DNA of 51,367 nt, taken from Salegentibacter echinorum (lineage in GTDB: Bacteria; Bacteroidota; Bacteroidia; Flavobacteriales; Flavobacteriaceae). The notes under the pieces were generated by a model. The model searched no databases. It had not been told where the DNA came from and saw nothing but the letters and a program-made list of their open reading frames with translations. Shown piece by piece: positions 10,968 through 50,979 of this stretch. The stretch spans positions 1-51,367 of the forward strand of contig NZ_FQVT01000019.1 of the NCBI RefSeq assembly GCF_900129445.1. Direction: 5' to 3'. How positions within the stretch are numbered: the stretch's first letter is position 1; each line of letters opens with the position of its first letter. The position numbers and the translations under genes were made by a program.

Positions 10968-11270
10968 ATGAATTTGAGAAAAGCCACAGAAATTGGAAAA
11001 TGCTTGTCTAATGAAACCAGAGTGCAAATAATGGAATGGCTAAAAAAACCAGAAATAAACTTTCCACCACATGAAACATTGAAACATTTTAACGATGGTG
11101 TTTGTGTTACTTACATTCAAGAAAAAGCCGGACTTTCTCAATCCACGATTTCAACCTATTTAACCAATATGGAAAAATGCGGATTATTAATTTCTACTAG
11201 ACACGGAAAATGGTCTTATTTAAAAAGAAACGAAAAAACAATTAAAGAATATATAAACTTTATCATCTAA
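10968..11270 (+). CDS. ArsR-family winged-helix regulator
   Basis: A 100-aa transcription factor. The N-terminal helices (GKCLSNETRVQIMEWLKKP) are the ArsR opening, and the recognition helix-turn-helix is EKAGLSQSTISTYLTNMEKCGLL, followed by a beta wing (ISTRHGKWSYLKRNEK). Typical metal ligand pairs such as CxC in the recognition helix are absent, so it may sense a small molecule or redox state rather than arsenic. Two cysteines (in GKCLSNE and DGVCVTY) plus one in EKCGLL could be redox sensors. The downstream dehydrogenase on the same strand is the probable target. Confidence 0.8.
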   Translation: MNLRKATEIGKCLSNETRVQIMEWLKKPEINFPPHETLKHFNDGVCVTYIQEKAGLSQSTISTYLTNMEKCGLLISTRHGKWSYLKRNEKTIKEYINFII

Positions 11271-11280
11271 AAAAAAATTA

Positions 11281-11308
11281 ATTTAATACATCTATATTTC
11301 GCGATATA
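11281..11308. promoter_or_regulatory. Second ArsR operator-like site
   Basis: Read on the minus strand this segment contains TATATCG, GA, TATAGAT and TATT in the same order and spacing as the site before arsR (10939-10962), with five differing positions over about 24. The plus strand has TATATTTC, one mismatch from a -7 box, so repressor binding would block transcription toward the dehydrogenase. Confidence 0.5.
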
Positions 11309-11315
11309 ACAAACT

Positions 11316-11435
11316 ATAAAAAAAGTATTTGGCATATTAGGTTGGTCGGGTTCAGGATTGATAATTCTTACGTATGCCCTTTTGCTTCTTCAAAAGGAAA
11401 AACGCAAATGCTATAAAAATAAATGTTTAACTTAA
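11316..11435 (+). pseudogene. Possible small membrane-protein gene that lacks an ATG start
   Basis: The frame reads KKVFGILGWSGSGLIILTYA, then LLLLQKEKRKC, and stops at 11435: a plausible single hydrophobic helix with a lysine-rich C-flank, 39 codons if read from the ATA at 11316. The codon where ATG would be expected (before AAA AAA GTA) is ATA. It lies between the operator and the dehydrogenase start. It could be a decayed small gene, a rare non-ATG start, or chance. Confidence 0.3.
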
Positions 11436-11445
11436 AATAAATAAT

Positions 11446-12048
11446 ATGAAAATTTTAGTAATAGGAGGAAATGGAACGATAGGAAAAAAAGTCTCTTCAC
11501 ACTTTAAAAAAGACAATGAAGTTTTAATCGCAGGTCGAACAAGCGGAGATGTAACTTTAGATCTTGCCGATAGTAATTCGATTAGAAAAATGTTTGAGAA
11601 AACAGGAAAGTTAGATGCAATTATTTGTATTGCTGGAGAAGCTAAATGGGCTTATTTTGACGAACTAACCGAAGACGATTATTATATTGGTTTAAAAAGT
11701 AAACTTATGGGGCAAGTAAATCTTGTAAGAATTGGAAAGGAATTTTTAAACCCAAAAGGTTCAATTACGCTTACCACAGGCATTTTGGCAGATGAACCAG
11801 TAGCCCAAACAACGAGTGCAGCAATGGTAAACGGTGGCATTCACAGTTTTGTAAAAGCGGTAGTTTTGGAAATGGAAAACAATTTGAGAATAAATGCAGT
11901 TTCTTCAGATATGGTAGAGGATGCCTATGAAAAATATAAGGACGTTTTTCCTGGTCATAATCCAGTACCGATGGACAAAGTAATTAATGCTTATGTAAAA
12001 AGCGTAAAAGGAAAAGTTAACGGACAAATTATTAGTGTGAGTGCATAA
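11446..12048 (+). CDS. Short-chain dehydrogenase-like protein lacking the usual Tyr
   Basis: A 200-aa Rossmann-fold protein. The nucleotide-binding motif GGNGTIGKK is at residues 7-15, IICIAGEA corresponds to the NAG block, and TLTTGIL is the active-site strand. The classical YxxxK is not present: the expected position reads TTSAAMVNGGIHSFVKA, as in a short subgroup of the superfamily (PRK07578-like). It may therefore use a different mechanism, bind nucleotide without classical catalysis, or reduce a particular substrate. It is downstream of arsR and a matching operator, so it is probably repressed by that regulator. Confidence 0.75.
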   Translation: MKILVIGGNGTIGKKVSSHFKKDNEVLIAGRTSGDVTLDLADSNSIRKMFEKTGKLDAIICIAGEAKWAYFDELTEDDYYIGLKSKLMGQVNLVRIGKEFLNPKGSITLTTGILADEPVAQTTSAAMVNGGIHSFVKAVVLEMENNLRINAVSSDMVEDAYEKYKDVFPGHNPVPMDKVINAYVKSVKGKVNGQIISVSA

Positions 12049-12241: not shown

Positions 12242-14656
12242 TTACCTCTTTTCCCTTAATTCCTGTATTTGTGCTTCTACTTGAGCTTTAGTACCAATAA
12301 AAGTTTTTTGTTGCACTTTGGTTTCGCCTTTTCTCGTGGTGGTTATCCTCACTTTAGCCTGGGTTTCACCATCTTCCGAAGTCATATTTACCTGGAAACT
12401 TTCTGACAAATCTTCAGAGGAAATATTCTCAATATCCACAGAGGTTTCTTCTGTTGCCGCGGTGGTATGCCCGCCAAGAATAGGCGCGATTACCAATCCA
12501 ATTAAACAGGTAAGTTTAATTAAGATATTCATAGAAGGTCCAGAGGTATCCTTAAAAGGATCACCAACGGTATCGCCGGTTACTGCGGCCTTGTGAGCTT
12601 CAGAACCTTTATAGGTCATTTCCCCATTAATCATTACCCCGGCTTCAAAGGATTTCTTGGCGTTGTCCCAGGCACCGCCGGCATTATTTTGAAAGATTGC
12701 CCAAAGTACTCCGCTTACCGTTACCCCGGCCATATAACCACCAAGCATTTCAGCAATAAGCACATTTTCATAACCAAATAACATAGGAAGTAACGCGATC
12801 GCGATTGGAAAACCTATAGTAAGTACCCCGGGCAATAACATCTCTTTTAAGGCCGCCTGGGTAGAAATCTCTACACATTTATCGTATTGTGGTTTAGCCT
12901 TGCCTTCCATAATCCCGGGAATGTTTTTAAACTGTCGTCTAACTTCCTCTACCATTTTCATGGCCGCTTTTCCCACAGATTTCATTGCTAATGCCGAAAA
13001 AACAACCGGGACCATTCCCCCAATAAACAACATCGCTAAAACCGGAGCTTTAAAAATATTAATTCCGTCGATTCCCGTAAAGGTTACGTAAGCCGCAAAA
13101 AGCGCGAGGGAAGTCAATGCTGCTGAAGCAATGGCAAATCCTTTCCCGGTAGCCGCGGTAGTATTTCCTACGGAATCTAAAATATCTGTACGCTCCCTAA
13201 CCTCTGCAGGGAGTTCGCTCATTTCAGCAATTCATCCGGCATTATCGGCAATTGGTCCAAAAGCATCTATGGCCAATTGCATCGCGGTGGTAGCCATCAT
13301 TGCCGAAGCAGCCAAAGCAACACCATAAAATCCTGCGAAAGCATAAGATGCCCAAATAGCCAAAGCAAACAATAATACAGAGAGAAAGGTGGAAATCATC
13401 CCTGTAGCAAGACCGGCAATTATATTGGTACCCGCACCGGTACTGGAATTTTGCACAATAGAGAGGACCGGTTTTTTACCAAGGCCTGTGTAAAATTCGG
13501 TCACCGCTGAAATTACACCACCAACAACAATCCCTACCAAACAGGCATAAAATACCCTAATGGAATTTATATTCATATATTCAAAACCTTCGGCACCGCC
13601 AACAAAGAAGCCCATAGTAAGCGTTTCTTTTGGCAGCATCCAGATTACGAGAAAATAACTGGAAATCGCAACCAGGATTATGGCCGTCCAGTTTCCAATG
13701 TTCAAGGCTTTTTGGACTTCGGCTTCTTTGGCCGAATTACTACTAATTTTCACCAGCATTGTTCCTATTATGGAAATAATAATCCCGGCACCGGCAATAG
13801 CCATAGGTAATAAAATAGGGCCAATTCCGCCGAAACCTTCTTCCACGATATTACCGCCCATATCCTCAATAATATAATTTCCTAATACCATGGCGGCGAG
13901 AACGGTGGCTACATAACTTCCGAAGAGATCGGCTCCCATTCCTGCAACATCCCCTACATTATCTCCCACATTATCGGCGATAGTTGCCGGGTTTCTGGGG
14001 TCATCTTCAGGAATTCCTGCTTCTACTTTTCCAACCAGGTCGGCACCAACATCGGCCGCTTTTGTATAAATTCCCCCTCCTACACGGGCAAAAAGGGCAA
14101 TAGATTCTGCGCCCAGTGAAAAACCGGCAAGCGTCTCCAGGACTACCGTCATTTGATTAGTATTGGTCCATTCCCCACCCATAAAATATTGATAAAAAAG
14201 GATAAAGAATACGGTTAGGCCCAAAACTGCCAATCCTGCTACGCCAAGTCCCATAACCGTACCACCGCCAAAGGATACTTTTAAAGCTTGTGGCAGAGAA
14301 CTTCTTGCTGCTTGAGTTGTACGTACATTAGTTTGTGTGGCAATTTTCATCCCCATATTTCCGGCCAGGGCAGAGAAAAAAGCTCCAAATATAAAAGCTA
14401 CAATAATAAGATAATGCGTAGTAGGGACTACATAAGCGATGGCAGCCAAAGCAATGCTGGCTCCAACCACAAACAAACTTAACAACCTATACTCTGCATT
14501 TAAAAAGGCAAGGGCGCCTTCGTAGATGTGAGAAGAAATTTCTTTCATCTTTCCGTCCCCTGCATCCTGTTTCATCACCCAGGATCTTTTAGCCCACATA
14601 AAAAGCAATCCCAGAACTGCAAGGATTGCCGGCACATAAATCATTATTGACTCCAT
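12242..14656 (-). pseudogene. hppA: K+-dependent membrane pyrophosphatase interrupted by TGA
   Basis: The locus reads as one 804-residue ion-pumping pyrophosphatase (PPi hydrolysis coupled to H+ and/or Na+ export) with one in-frame TGA at codon 475. The N-terminal part (474 codons, to 13232) has the substrate motif DVGADLVGKVE at residues 202-212 and many membrane helices. The C-terminal part continues in the same frame; ATG at codon 479 could restart translation (12242-13222). The TGA replaces the second Gly of the invariant DNAGGIAEM, a one-base GGA to TGA change. Ala501 and Gly504 in [10 protein letters not shown] mark the K+-dependent subfamily. No other frameshift or stop is seen, so this is a recent nonsense mutation, a sequence error, or a two-part product. 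Confidence 0.85.
13232..13234 (-). other. In-frame TGA within hppA
   Basis: The minus strand reads GAT AAT GCC GGA TGA ATT GCT GAA ATG. The family has GGI at GGA-TGA-ATT, so TGA stands for Gly. TGA is used as a normal stop elsewhere in the window (for example at 48978-48980), so the code itself is standard. Confidence 0.9.
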
Positions 14657-14960
14657 ATTAATTGTTAAGTTTTAGTTAATACAGCTAATTTAGTGAAATC
14701 AATAACAAATAAAAAAGCAATAACCTTTTAAGATTATTGCTTTTTTATATTTATTTTTTATCAGTATTTTTTCTTATAAAATTAAGAAAATCTAAATTTG
14801 ACCTCAAAAGCTTCAAAAACTATGAGTTCTTTTTAGTAAGTACTTATTGTCCTGGATTTAAGACAGAATAAAATTTTATAAACGATACTACTATTTACGG
14901 ATATTGATTTTATCCTTATCGCAAGATTTTTTTTCAGAAAAAATTAATTACGATTATTAT
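14657..14960. other. Intergenic region between ppa and hppA
   Basis: It holds one strong terminator-like hairpin (14711-14746) and otherwise AT-rich sequence. No gene is visible. Because the hairpin lies between the two pyrophosphatase genes, they are probably separate transcription units. Confidence 0.5.
14711..14746 (-). terminator. Rho-independent terminator after ppa
   Basis: AAAAAAGCAATAA (14711-14723) and TTATTGCTTTTTT (14734-14746) form a perfect 13-bp stem with A and T flanks, so it could work in both directions. On the minus strand it lies downstream of the soluble pyrophosphatase gene. Confidence 0.7.
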
Positions 14961-15482
14961 TTAATGCGGATTAATTCCAAACTGACCCTTATCGCCGTCA
15001 AATTCTTCAAAACGCTGCACACATTCCTTGATAATTTTCCTGGCATCAGAAGCATCGCCCCAGCCACCTACATCTACTTTCTTTTTTTCCAGATCTTTAT
15101 ATACCTTAAAGAAATGCTCAATTTCTTTAATCATATGTCCGTTTAATTCCTTTAGGTCGTTTAACCGGTTCCAAATAGGATCTGATACCGGAACACAAAT
15201 AATTTTTTCATCCGGCCCTTTTTCATCGGCCATGTGGAAAACACCAATTGGCTTCACTTCCATTACCACACCGGGAAAAGTAGGCTCGCTCACCAACACC
15301 AAAACATCTAAAGGATCACTGTCTTGCGCAAGGGTATCTGGTATAAACCCGTAATCTGCGGGGTACATCATTGAAGAGAAAATCATTCTATCGTAACGAA
15401 CTTTCTTCAATTCAAAATCGTACTCATATTTGTTTCTACTCCCCTTTGGGATTTCTATTAATACATCAAAAGTATCTGACAT
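14961..15482 (-). CDS. ppa: Soluble inorganic pyrophosphatase, family I
   Basis: A 173-aa cytosolic Mg-dependent enzyme that hydrolyses pyrophosphate to two phosphates and pulls biosynthetic reactions forward. The signature DSDPLDV (DxDPxD) supplies catalytic aspartates; IPKGSRNKYEYD and YPADYGFIPDT are the other active-site blocks. Length is normal for the family. It lies upstream of the interrupted membrane pyrophosphatase, on the same strand, so the cell keeps a cytosolic route for pyrophosphate removal. A consensus -7 box is at 15519-15512. Confidence 0.95.
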   Translation of the reverse strand: MSDTFDVLIEIPKGSRNKYEYDFELKKVRYDRMIFSSMMYPADYGFIPDTLAQDSDPLDVLVLVSEPTFPGVVMEVKPIGVFHMADEKGPDEKIICVPVSDPIWNRLNDLKELNGHMIKEIEHFFKVYKDLEKKKVDVGGWGDASDARKIIKECVQRFEEFDGDKGQFGINPH

Positions 15483-28381: not shown

Positions 28382-28759
28382 ATGAAAAAGTTTATGCTTA
28401 TCACATGTTTTATCATTGGCGGTTTTGCCACTGCGCAAGCCCAGCAAACTTCTCCTGTTTGGCCGGGTTGTGAAGATGCCGAAGATGTAAAGGCCTGTTT
28501 TAATCAAAAGCTCGCTCAACACGTAAGAAAAAATTATGAATATCCGCAAAGTGAGGATGGTGAATACATAAGGGGAAAAGTAAAAATCTCTTTTACCATC
28601 ACAGAAGAAGGAAAAGCGGTAGTAGAATCTGTAGAGGGAGATAAAGCCGAAGTAAACGCAGCAGCAAAAGCGATGATACAAAAAATTCCAGATATGGAAC
28701 CCGGCACTTTAAACGGAGAGCCAGACGATCGTAATTTCACCGTTCCTTTTAATTTCTAG
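28382..28759 (+). CDS. Secreted TonB-C-like protein, copy 1
   Basis: A 125-aa protein with a signal peptide (residues 1-20, ending QAQ) and a compact TonB C-terminal-like fold (YIRGKVKISFTITEEGKAVV, then the PDMEPGTLNG end). It lacks the membrane anchor and proline-rich linker of true TonB, so it is not a classical energy transducer. Two cysteines in WPGCEDAEDVKACF are conserved in copy 2 and may form a disulfide. It may sit in the periplasm and bind outer-membrane partners. It is immediately downstream of thyA and is followed 32 bases later by its paralog. Confidence 0.8.
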   Translation: MKKFMLITCFIIGGFATAQAQQTSPVWPGCEDAEDVKACFNQKLAQHVRKNYEYPQSEDGEYIRGKVKISFTITEEGKAVVESVEGDKAEVNAAAKAMIQKIPDMEPGTLNGEPDDRNFTVPFNF

Positions 28760-28791
28760 ATTAGAAATTTTAAATCTTAATACTCCCAGCT

Positions 28792-29202
28792 ATGAGAAAA
28801 CTTTTATTTTGCTTTTTTCTTTTAACCGGTTTTTTCGCCTTTGCCCAAAACGATGTGGAAGTAAAAGGAAATTCCGTAAATGTAAAAGAAAAAGCTCCCA
28901 TCTGGCCGGGCTGTGAAACCACCCTAAAAAAAGAAGAATGCTTTAATGAAAAGTTTATAAAACTTGTAAAAGAGCATTATAGATACCCGCGTAATGCTGA
29001 AGGGGAGTTTATAAGAGGGAAAGTGCTTGTTGCGCTGGAAATAAACAAAGAAGGTAAAGCTATAATCAATTCGGTTGAAGGGGAGCAAAAACCTATTGTT
29101 ACCGCGGTAAAAGAAATGCTTAAACATTTACCGCAAATGCAACCGGGAACCATAGCGGGAAAACCAACCGCTATTAGCTACAAAATTCCGCTAAACCTGT
29201 AA
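28792..29202 (+). CDS. Secreted TonB-C-like protein, copy 2
   Basis: A 136-aa paralog of the preceding gene: signal peptide (residues 1-18, ending AFAQ), then the shared WPGCE...C pair, YPRNAEGEFIRGKVLVALEI and LPQMQPGTIAGK. The copies align along most of their length, indicating a tandem duplication. Function is unknown; a periplasmic TonB-C fold without anchor is the best reading. A strong terminator hairpin follows 25 bases after the stop, ending the probable thyA operon. Confidence 0.8.
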   Translation: MRKLLFCFFLLTGFFAFAQNDVEVKGNSVNVKEKAPIWPGCETTLKKEECFNEKFIKLVKEHYRYPRNAEGEFIRGKVLVALEINKEGKAIINSVEGEQKPIVTAVKEMLKHLPQMQPGTIAGKPTAISYKIPLNL

Positions 29203-49120: not shown

Positions 49121-49257
49121 AGAATAAGCACCATTTCGACAATCTCAATACTCCTCATAAATCGATGGAAACCTTAATGAAAACAATGATTACCAGTGTT
49201 TTGAGCTTATATTTTTAGAGTAGGTAGATTTAATAAAATAGAACTAAATAGAATTGC

Positions 49258-49297
49258 TGCGTACAGATTGCGTACAACTTTTTAAAGTTGTACGCAA
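49258..49297. promoter_or_regulatory. Integrase-proximal repeats
   Basis: GCGTACA occurs twice 11 bases apart (49258 and 49269). A perfect 30-base inverted repeat, TTGCGTACAACTTT-TT-AAAGTTGTACGCAA (arms 14 and 14), covers 49268-49297, ending 35 bases before the integrase start. It may be an operator, an integrase arm site or a hairpin. Confidence 0.6.
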
Positions 49298-49332
49298 AAT
49301 GGTTATATTTACTTTATTCAAATATTTCACTA

Positions 49333-50712
49333 ATGGCAACCATCTATTTTTTATACCGTTCTACCCGCGAAAAAGCTCCTCTTTCAATTCGGTTACAAGA
49401 TTGTGCAGCTAACGGCAATAAATTTCAATTTGGGGGAAAAACAGAACTTGAAGTATCTAAAGAATATTGGGAAAAAACACGCCATAAAAAACGAAATGTA
49501 TCGGCAAAAGATAAACGAGAAATTTCGACTGTGAACAATAAACTTTCCGAAATTGAAAACTCAATCTTAAAAGCCTATAAAAAGGAGAAACCACACCCCA
49601 ATAACAAAAATTGGTTAAAAAACACTCTTCAAAGATATTATAATCCTGTAAAGGAAGAGGTAAGAAGCGATTTATTAAAAGATTGCATTCAGAACATGAT
49701 TGATACTGCAGACGTCCGGGAAAATAGCCAAAAAGGTTTAGGACTTTCAAAAAGCCGTGTAAGCTCTTATAAAAACCTTTTAAGGGTTGTTTCTAAATAC
49801 CAAACCCGCAAAAAGAACCCAATACGAATAAAGGATATTGATTTGCAATTTGGAAGAGCTTTTTTAAAATGGTTAATGCACAATCAAAATTATTCGGAAA
49901 GTTATGCACGGAAAAAAATTGACGATCTCAAAACCGTATGTAATGATGCAAAACTTGACGGCGTTGAAACCAGCCTTCAATTAGGTAAAATTAAAGGCGG
50001 AAAACCTAAAAAGGAATTTATAATTTACCTTACTCCAAAGGAACTCGAACAAATCGAAAATACAAACCTTGTGAGCGATGCCCATAAAAATGTCCGAAAA
50101 TGGTTTTTGTTTGGATGCCAAATAGGACAACGTGGGGGTGATCTTTTGAGCATTACAGAAAAAAATTTTGTAAGTCGTGATGATCTGGACGTCATCGAAC
50201 TTAAACAGCAAAAAACGGGAAAAGATATTACCATACCCATTACAGATAAAACCCTGGATATCCTTAAAGAGGGTTTACCAAAGACAATAAGCTCACAAAG
50301 GTTTAATACAGATATTAAAGAAGTATGCAGAATTGCCGGACTGGACAAGCCTACCAAGGGTTCAAAAATAATGATGCTCGATAAGGATGGCAATGAAATA
50401 CCTAAGGACAAAAATGGGAAATATGCAAAAAAAGGAATTAAACGTACCGTGGTGGGTACGTATCCAAAATATGAACTTATTAGCTCTCACGTTTGTAGGC
50501 GTTCGTTTGCAACCAATCTTTACGGTATAATGCCAACCCCTTTAATTATGCAAATAACTGCGCATAGTACCGAAAAAATGTTTTTGCAGTACATTGGTAA
50601 AAATGCCCTCGATTATGCCAAACTCATAAATGATTTTTACGAATTACAAAAACTTAAAAAAGAACGAAAATCCCAATTAAAACTTATCAAAAACGCATCA
50701 TACCAAAATTAA
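49333..50712 (+). CDS. Tyrosine recombinase/integrase
   Basis: A 459-aa site-specific recombinase. N-terminal residues about 1-115 are an arm-binding region (ATIYFLYRSTREKAPLSIRL), residues about 120-215 a SAM-like core-binding domain (RAFLKWLMHNQNYSESYARK), and the rest the catalytic domain with Arg267 (CQIGQRGGDL), His386-Arg389 (HVCRRS), His411 (ITAHST) and Tyr420 (FLQYIG). All catalytic residues are present. The start is ATG 49333; the frame extends to a TTG at 49288, but that lies in an inverted repeat and adds a non-homologous extension. It is the first gene inside the element whose boundary is at 49103-49120. Confidence 0.93.
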   Translation: MATIYFLYRSTREKAPLSIRLQDCAANGNKFQFGGKTELEVSKEYWEKTRHKKRNVSAKDKREISTVNNKLSEIENSILKAYKKEKPHPNNKNWLKNTLQRYYNPVKEEVRSDLLKDCIQNMIDTADVRENSQKGLGLSKSRVSSYKNLLRVVSKYQTRKKNPIRIKDIDLQFGRAFLKWLMHNQNYSESYARKKIDDLKTVCNDAKLDGVETSLQLGKIKGGKPKKEFIIYLTPKELEQIENTNLVSDAHKNVRKWFLFGCQIGQRGGDLLSITEKNFVSRDDLDVIELKQQKTGKDITIPITDKTLDILKEGLPKTISSQRFNTDIKEVCRIAGLDKPTKGSKIMMLDKDGNEIPKDKNGKYAKKGIKRTVVGTYPKYELISSHVCRRSFATNLYGIMPTPLIMQITAHSTEKMFLQYIGKNALDYAKLINDFYELQKLKKERKSQLKLIKNASYQN

Positions 50713-50718
50713 AATATC

Positions 50719-50979
50719 ATGAAAACAGAAACTTTAAAAATCACCCTGGCGCAACGAATATTGAGTATTTCTGATAATGCTTTATTGGAAAAACTTAATA
50801 CCTACTTGAACAAGGAAAGCATTATAGGTTATAATGCGGATGGCACGCCTATAAACGAAAAGGATTATTTAGAGGATATGAAGGCTATAAATGAAAAAAT
50901 AGACCGGGGCGAATTCAAAGGTGAAACATCTAATGAGGTTAAAAAATTTATCATTGATGAGAATAGTCTGGAGGGATAA
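50719..50979 (+). CDS. ParD-like antitoxin of a toxin-antitoxin pair
   Basis: An 86-aa acidic protein starting 6 bases after the integrase stop. The N-terminal half (TLKITLAQRILSISDNALLE) has the helical, basic look of a dimerisation/DNA-binding region; the C-terminus is charged (EDMKAINEKIDRGEFKGETS, then NEVKKF) and probably disordered, ready to wrap the toxin. It overlaps the next gene by 23 bases, the classical antitoxin-toxin coupling. The family assignment is from size, order and overlap rather than a strong motif. Confidence 0.65.
   Translation: MKTETLKITLAQRILSISDNALLEKLNTYLNKESIIGYNADGTPINEKDYLEDMKAINEKIDRGEFKGETSNEVKKFIIDENSLEG

Follow-up and report, generated by a model that had tools for sequence, protein, structure and literature searches.

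We consider here a membrane pyrophosphatase gene of Salegentibacter echinorum, which lies on the minus strand (12242-14656) of a stretch of 51,367 nucleotides that is referred to below as the window. The window is one whole contig of an assembly of 3.96 Mb in 40 contigs, rated 99.98% complete. Translation of the gene gives a single 805-codon frame with one internal TGA at codon 475: 474 residues stand before it, and 329 residues follow in the same frame up to the final stop (Table 1). The TGA takes the place of the second Gly in the DNAGGIAEM motif of a membrane pyrophosphatase of the K+-dependent type, and the base change at this codon is a substitution that does not fall within a homopolymer. 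Two PF03030 matches flank the stop with a single profile position missing between them, and taken together the two parts have the length of the family profile for membrane-bound pyrophosphatases. A search of the whole genome with PF03030 finds a single copy (positions 1-645, 846 bits, '1 TGA' inside). The uninterrupted frame needed for 15-17 transmembrane helices, the number given for membrane pyrophosphatases in the available part of PMC10897367, is broken at codon 475. The translation and the profile matches on both sides confirm the initial annotation, which had described one in-frame TGA with both halves of the gene still in frame.

Table 1. Features of the pump gene and its surroundings, in window coordinates.
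Feature	Position	Strand	Basis or remark
ArsR-type HTH regulator and 200-aa SDR/epimerase-like (short-chain dehydrogenase-like) gene	10968-12048	+	between Ku and pump gene
C-terminal extension past the PF03030 match	12242..12487	-	profile match boundary
C-terminal part, same frame	12242..13231	-	329 codons and final stop; PF03030 positions 412-645, E 3e-104
In-frame TGA, codon 475	13232..13234	-	second Gly of DNAGGIAEM; corresponds to VrPPase (4a01) residue 511
Membrane pyrophosphatase, N-terminal part	13232..14656	-	474 codons and TGA; PF03030 positions 1-410, E 1.6e-143
Inverted repeat with a terminal T run, terminator-like by eye	14711..14746	-	between soluble pyrophosphatase and pump gene
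Soluble inorganic pyrophosphatase (PF00719), intact	14961..15482	-	Pfam match

The soluble pyrophosphatase adjoins the pump gene in all 14 congeners and is 88-94% identical to theirs. Within the flanks that were fetched, a DUF5686 gene follows in 11 of the 14 congeners, and Ku is found on the other side in 12. The distance from the pump gene to Ku is 1,736 bases, about 1.1 kb more than in S. lacus, and tblastn at 1e-8 gives no match to the ArsR-type and SDR-like genes that occupy it when run against 20 relative loci (13 of them extending as far as Ku). On these comparisons, the roughly 1.1 kb beside the broken pump gene look like an insert specific to this lineage. Elsewhere in the window, a phage-type integrase gene is located near the contig end (49255-50709), and two tandem small proteins (28382-29202) each have a match to the TonB C-terminal domain.

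Does the stop exist in other members of the family? Out of 397 family genomes drawn, 372 hold the pump gene (our own genome included), and stops were scored in all 372. The genome under study is the only one with a stop inside the gene; the 371 others have none. The comparison with close relatives, a check that had been named beforehand, finds the gene intact, with Gly at the site, in 14 of 14 congeners. A stop that belongs to programmed readthrough or to a split gene is expected to be conserved in relatives, and this one is shared by 0 of the 14 congeners and 0 of the 371 others. No stop-made split of the gene is seen in any of the 372 genomes besides our own; two-piece pump genes do occur in some draft assemblies, where the pieces are on different contigs, near contig ends and without stops. 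Among the 330 family genomes of good quality (completeness of 90% or more, contamination of 5% or less), 316 keep the pump gene and 14 are without it, and the gene is therefore dispensable. One genome (G296) carries two full copies. In the tree of the pump gene, for which 107 of the 844 codon columns, those with gaps or the stop, were removed beforehand, the genus does not hold together, and the Gillisia and Salinimicrobium outgroup loci group with the congeners G001, G003 and G007 (support 75-97).

The residue replaced by the stop is Gly in all 114 loci fetched from relatives (14 congeners, 99 others, and L015, whose motif ends IAQM; L030 and L031 are of the same species), as the initial annotation had claimed in calling it invariant. 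The codon for this Gly is GGA in 11 of the congeners and GGG in the other 3. The Met of DNAGGIAEM is likewise present in the same 114 loci, L015 included. Its codon is the first ATG of the C-terminal part (13222-13220), in frame and four codons past the TGA, where a restart of translation had been suggested. The ATG is there as described; the idea of an acquired restart does not stand, because the codon is that of the family's conserved Met.

Alignment with known structures places the break at one residue. On the Vigna radiata enzyme (VrPPase, PDB accession code: 4a01), the first part stops at residue 510 and the second starts at 512; on the Thermotoga maritima enzyme (PDB accession code: 4av3), the corresponding residues are 477 and 479, and the N-terminal part spans residues 19-477. 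In an AlphaFold2 model of the intact pump of the congener L112 (mean pLDDT 84.7), Gly475 is within a predicted helix (residues 457-479), the eleventh long helix by manual count. The C-terminal extension of L112 (residues 757-810) is predicted to form three strands and a helix, and the pumps of the congeners G001, G003, G007 and G010 fall short of the L112 length by 46-51 residues. Asp471 and Asn472 precede the break, while Asn498, Asp664, Lys667, Asp695, Asp699, Lys702 and Asp703 follow it; all seven after the break are invariant in an alignment of 27 proteins (A1), which were all chosen by the DNAGG[IV]AEM motif, so that the alignment says nothing on the constancy of the motif itself. We take these conserved Asp, Asn and Lys to be active-site residues. 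With catalytic residues on both sides of the break, the catalytic centre should be common to the two parts, and therefore neither part should work alone.

How long has the stop been in place? Compared with the congeners, the gene has no core indel and no frameshift. At the 257 columns that are invariant in 110 other aligned relatives, it has 0 departures (the stop itself excepted), and the conserved residues of the PF03030 family are in place there (L031, L015 and two proteins no longer than 600 aa were left out of the 111-row alignment). When each row is left out in turn, departures at invariant columns number 0 in each of the 14 congeners and average 0.39 (0 to 7) in the 96 other rows. At columns conserved in 97% or more, the studied genome has 1 departure in 309, and the congeners have 0 or 1 in 308. 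Comparison with the congeners gives similar dN/dS values for the two sides, 0.024-0.036 for the part before the stop and 0.025-0.045 for the part that follows, although dS is saturated (1.0-2.9). Neutral drift since the loss of constraint is less than about 0.005 per site (with 2.25 nonsynonymous sites per codon assumed), and the terminal branch of the gene is 0.217. The absence of decay besides the stop argues for a stop of very recent origin, or else for a base error. The relaxed selection by which a pseudogene is recognised would have had too little time to show.

One measure is different. The studied genome has 9 private amino-acid changes and 46 synonymous ones, the highest ratio of the 15 genomes, against 24 and 317 in the other 14 pooled (Fisher p 0.032), although such a count is a crude measure that inflates on long branches. 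The ratio is not significantly different from those of G010 (p 0.43) and G005 (p 1.0), two long-branched congeners picked post hoc. Seven of the nine changes are conservative by eye, and none is at the 257 invariant columns. The raised share of amino-acid changes could be a hint of an older relaxation.

If the base was misread or misassembled, or if the mutation exists only in the culture that was sequenced, the gene would be intact in the wild strain. Such an origin predicts full preservation of the remaining gene, as found, and suits a 40-contig draft and an allele that is unique among 372 genomes. The possibility of a wrong base, raised in the initial annotation, thus agrees with the preserved gene but less well with the kind of change, a substitution outside any homopolymer: errors in 454 and long-read drafts are mostly indels, which would count against an error if the present draft is of such a kind. 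It also agrees poorly with the coding-potential scan of 451 kb of the assembly (the window and a 400 kb sample of the genome), in which no other gene was recognised as broken by an in-frame stop, the scan being blind to frameshifts. In that scan the pump stop has the top score among 16 same-frame pairs. Among the remaining 15, the Pfam families differ between the two sides in 13; the second side is without any match in 2 (L180 3082-5598; window 49255-50976), which are undecided. The pump is therefore the only same-frame pair seen by Pfam with one gene on both sides. An error or a culture mutation is in our view unlikely, though it deserves serious weight. The gene for RF2 (prfB), in which '1 TAA' is reported inside, was tried as a second broken gene and rejected: it has the usual layout of a short first frame, AGGGGG, CTT TGA C and a long frame, the two motifs being what we take to be the usual prfB frameshift site.

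This ordinary RF2 also speaks against selenocysteine insertion or a genome-wide reassignment of UGA, to which we give practically no credence and which has the TGA itself, and nothing else, in its favor. In the 451 kb, TGA terminates 23 of the 175 ORFs of 300 or more codons. No tRNA-Sec or SelB is found over the cut-off in the genome. The best tRNA-Sec score is 41 bits against 47 required, at a tRNA-Ser (150 of 242 candidates scored), and the best SelB score is 187.8 against 242 bits, from a 398-aa frame that covers half the profile; this match, beside a tRNA cluster, is probably EF-Tu. The tRNA search gives 37 tRNA places with no UCA anticodon among them, from 150 of 286 candidates scored (an incomplete set), and the tRNA-Trp has a CCA anticodon with a 5-bp anticodon stem by eye. 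A suppressor tRNA and a 4-bp-stem tRNA-Trp, the latter a UGA-reading device according to the available part of PMC13092985, find no support in these results. The locus is alike to selenoproteins and UGA recoding only in its in-frame UGA, and it differs from them in the lack of machinery over cut-off, the Gly of the relatives, and the normal RF2 and UGA use; that selenocysteine was not to be expected here, as first supposed, is borne out. There is no tRNA-Ile among the 37 tRNAs found; it is probably among the 136 unscored candidates or in rRNA operons that the draft lacks.

The same tRNA and RF2 results weigh on a functional readthrough of the UGA, where low-level insertion, e.g., by tRNA-Trp, would still yield full-length pump in a lower amount. 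In enterobacteria, according to the available part of PMC7918605, TGA terminates leakily. The RNA near the codon folds better than dinucleotide shuffles, both in the 61 nt from the codon on (z -1.92, 7 of 200) and in a 100-nt stretch that spans it (z -1.95, 11 of 200), and the 61-nt energy ranks lowest among 15 genomes of the genus (plain shuffles: z -1.44). However, the fold of the downstream 100 nt is not better than that of shuffles (z -0.54), at an energy that is mid-range in the genus, and the 61-nt energies are similar in intact relatives (-14.6 here and -14.5 in G001). Because relatives without the stop overlap in fold energy, the mild folding is not counted as a signal and is read as chance; Rfam gives nothing at the gathering threshold in the window. 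Readthrough would most likely insert a residue other than Gly; with Gly in 114 of 114 loci, such a replacement should be harmful, and none of the other genomes has the stop. Functional readthrough is for these reasons improbable, and it is decidedly improbable that the stop is real and tolerated via trace readthrough, with the codon serving as a dial that lowers the pump level beside the soluble pyrophosphatase.

In-frame stops of bacterial genes are reported by Belinky et al. 2021 (PMC7918605, as far as its text was available) to be widespread and mostly short-lived, with dN/dS below 1, and frequent readthrough is proposed there. The stop in the pump gene is alike in being a single in-frame stop with dN/dS below 1, whereas that study kept only stops that two or more species have in common and found a rather high dN/dS, and ours is found in one genome with a very low dN/dS. 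In the light of that report, a low dN/dS alone neither makes nor excludes a readthrough gene. A pump in two parts, in which the N-terminal part and a C-terminal part restarted at the ATG four codons on would both be made and assemble, could explain why frame and conservation continue on both sides and makes use of the in-frame ATG. This ATG, however, is a Met in 114 of 114 loci and hence was not acquired as a start, the cut falls next to Asp471/Asn472 within a predicted helix and not in a loop, and no other genome has a stop-made split, all of which makes such an assembly very improbable. The two-part or readthrough pump of the initial annotation thus lacks convincing support, given relatives without the stop, an old Met as the restart, a cut in a helix, and a search that found no recoding parts.

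The reading that we prefer, and that is probably correct, is a genuine and very recent nonsense mutation that inactivated the sole membrane pyrophosphatase gene of the strain; that the base itself is real, we infer. A very recent loss of the pump is also the best-fitting of the three possibilities first put forward, given 14 of 14 congeners intact and no other decay. By this mutation, a point change at codon 475 would very recently have created the TGA, and translation would end after residue 474, inside predicted helix 11. The product would be without helices 12-16, which include three of the six inner-ring helices (helices 5, 6, 11, 12, 15 and 16 in the available part of PMC10897367), and would also lack a number of conserved Asp, Lys and Asn residues; we expect it to be inactive. 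Of the C-terminal part, no more than traces would be made. The cell would lose its PPi-driven pumping yet live, the loss being tolerated because the neighboring soluble pyrophosphatase, in a presumed backup role, would still clear PPi.

If the mutation is real, it is the early loss of a pump kept by 316 of 330 genomes, caught before other visible decay, and it provides a natural test of the purpose of the pump with an intact soluble pyrophosphatase adjoining. If the base is an error, the case amounts to a caution for annotation. Nothing new about the genetic code follows from this stop. In a literature search at the level of listings, no report came up of a membrane pyrophosphatase gene that is prematurely stopped, split or a pseudogene, or of such a case in Salegentibacter.

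As for the type of the pump, its GNTTA motif has Ala, not Lys, at position 12.46, which we take to be the Ala following GNTT. Ala at 12.46 marks the K+-dependent subclass in the available part of PMC10897367, and the K+-dependent family named at the outset fits this motif. The gene is alike to the flavobacterial K+-dependent membrane pyrophosphatases (PF03030) in its full-length match in one frame and its GNTTA, and it differs from them in being cut by a TGA at the conserved Gly. In the alignment, Glu184 (codon 184, window 14105-14107) stands where TmPPase and VrPPase have their helix-5 Ser. A gate Glu at this helix-5 place is reported, in the same part of PMC10897367, for the unusual H+-PPase of Flavobacterium johnsoniae, and by this likeness in sequence the pump may perhaps be of the F. 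johnsoniae H+-pumping type, the pumped ion being deduced from the alignment. Residue 184 varies among the 27 relatives of alignment A1.
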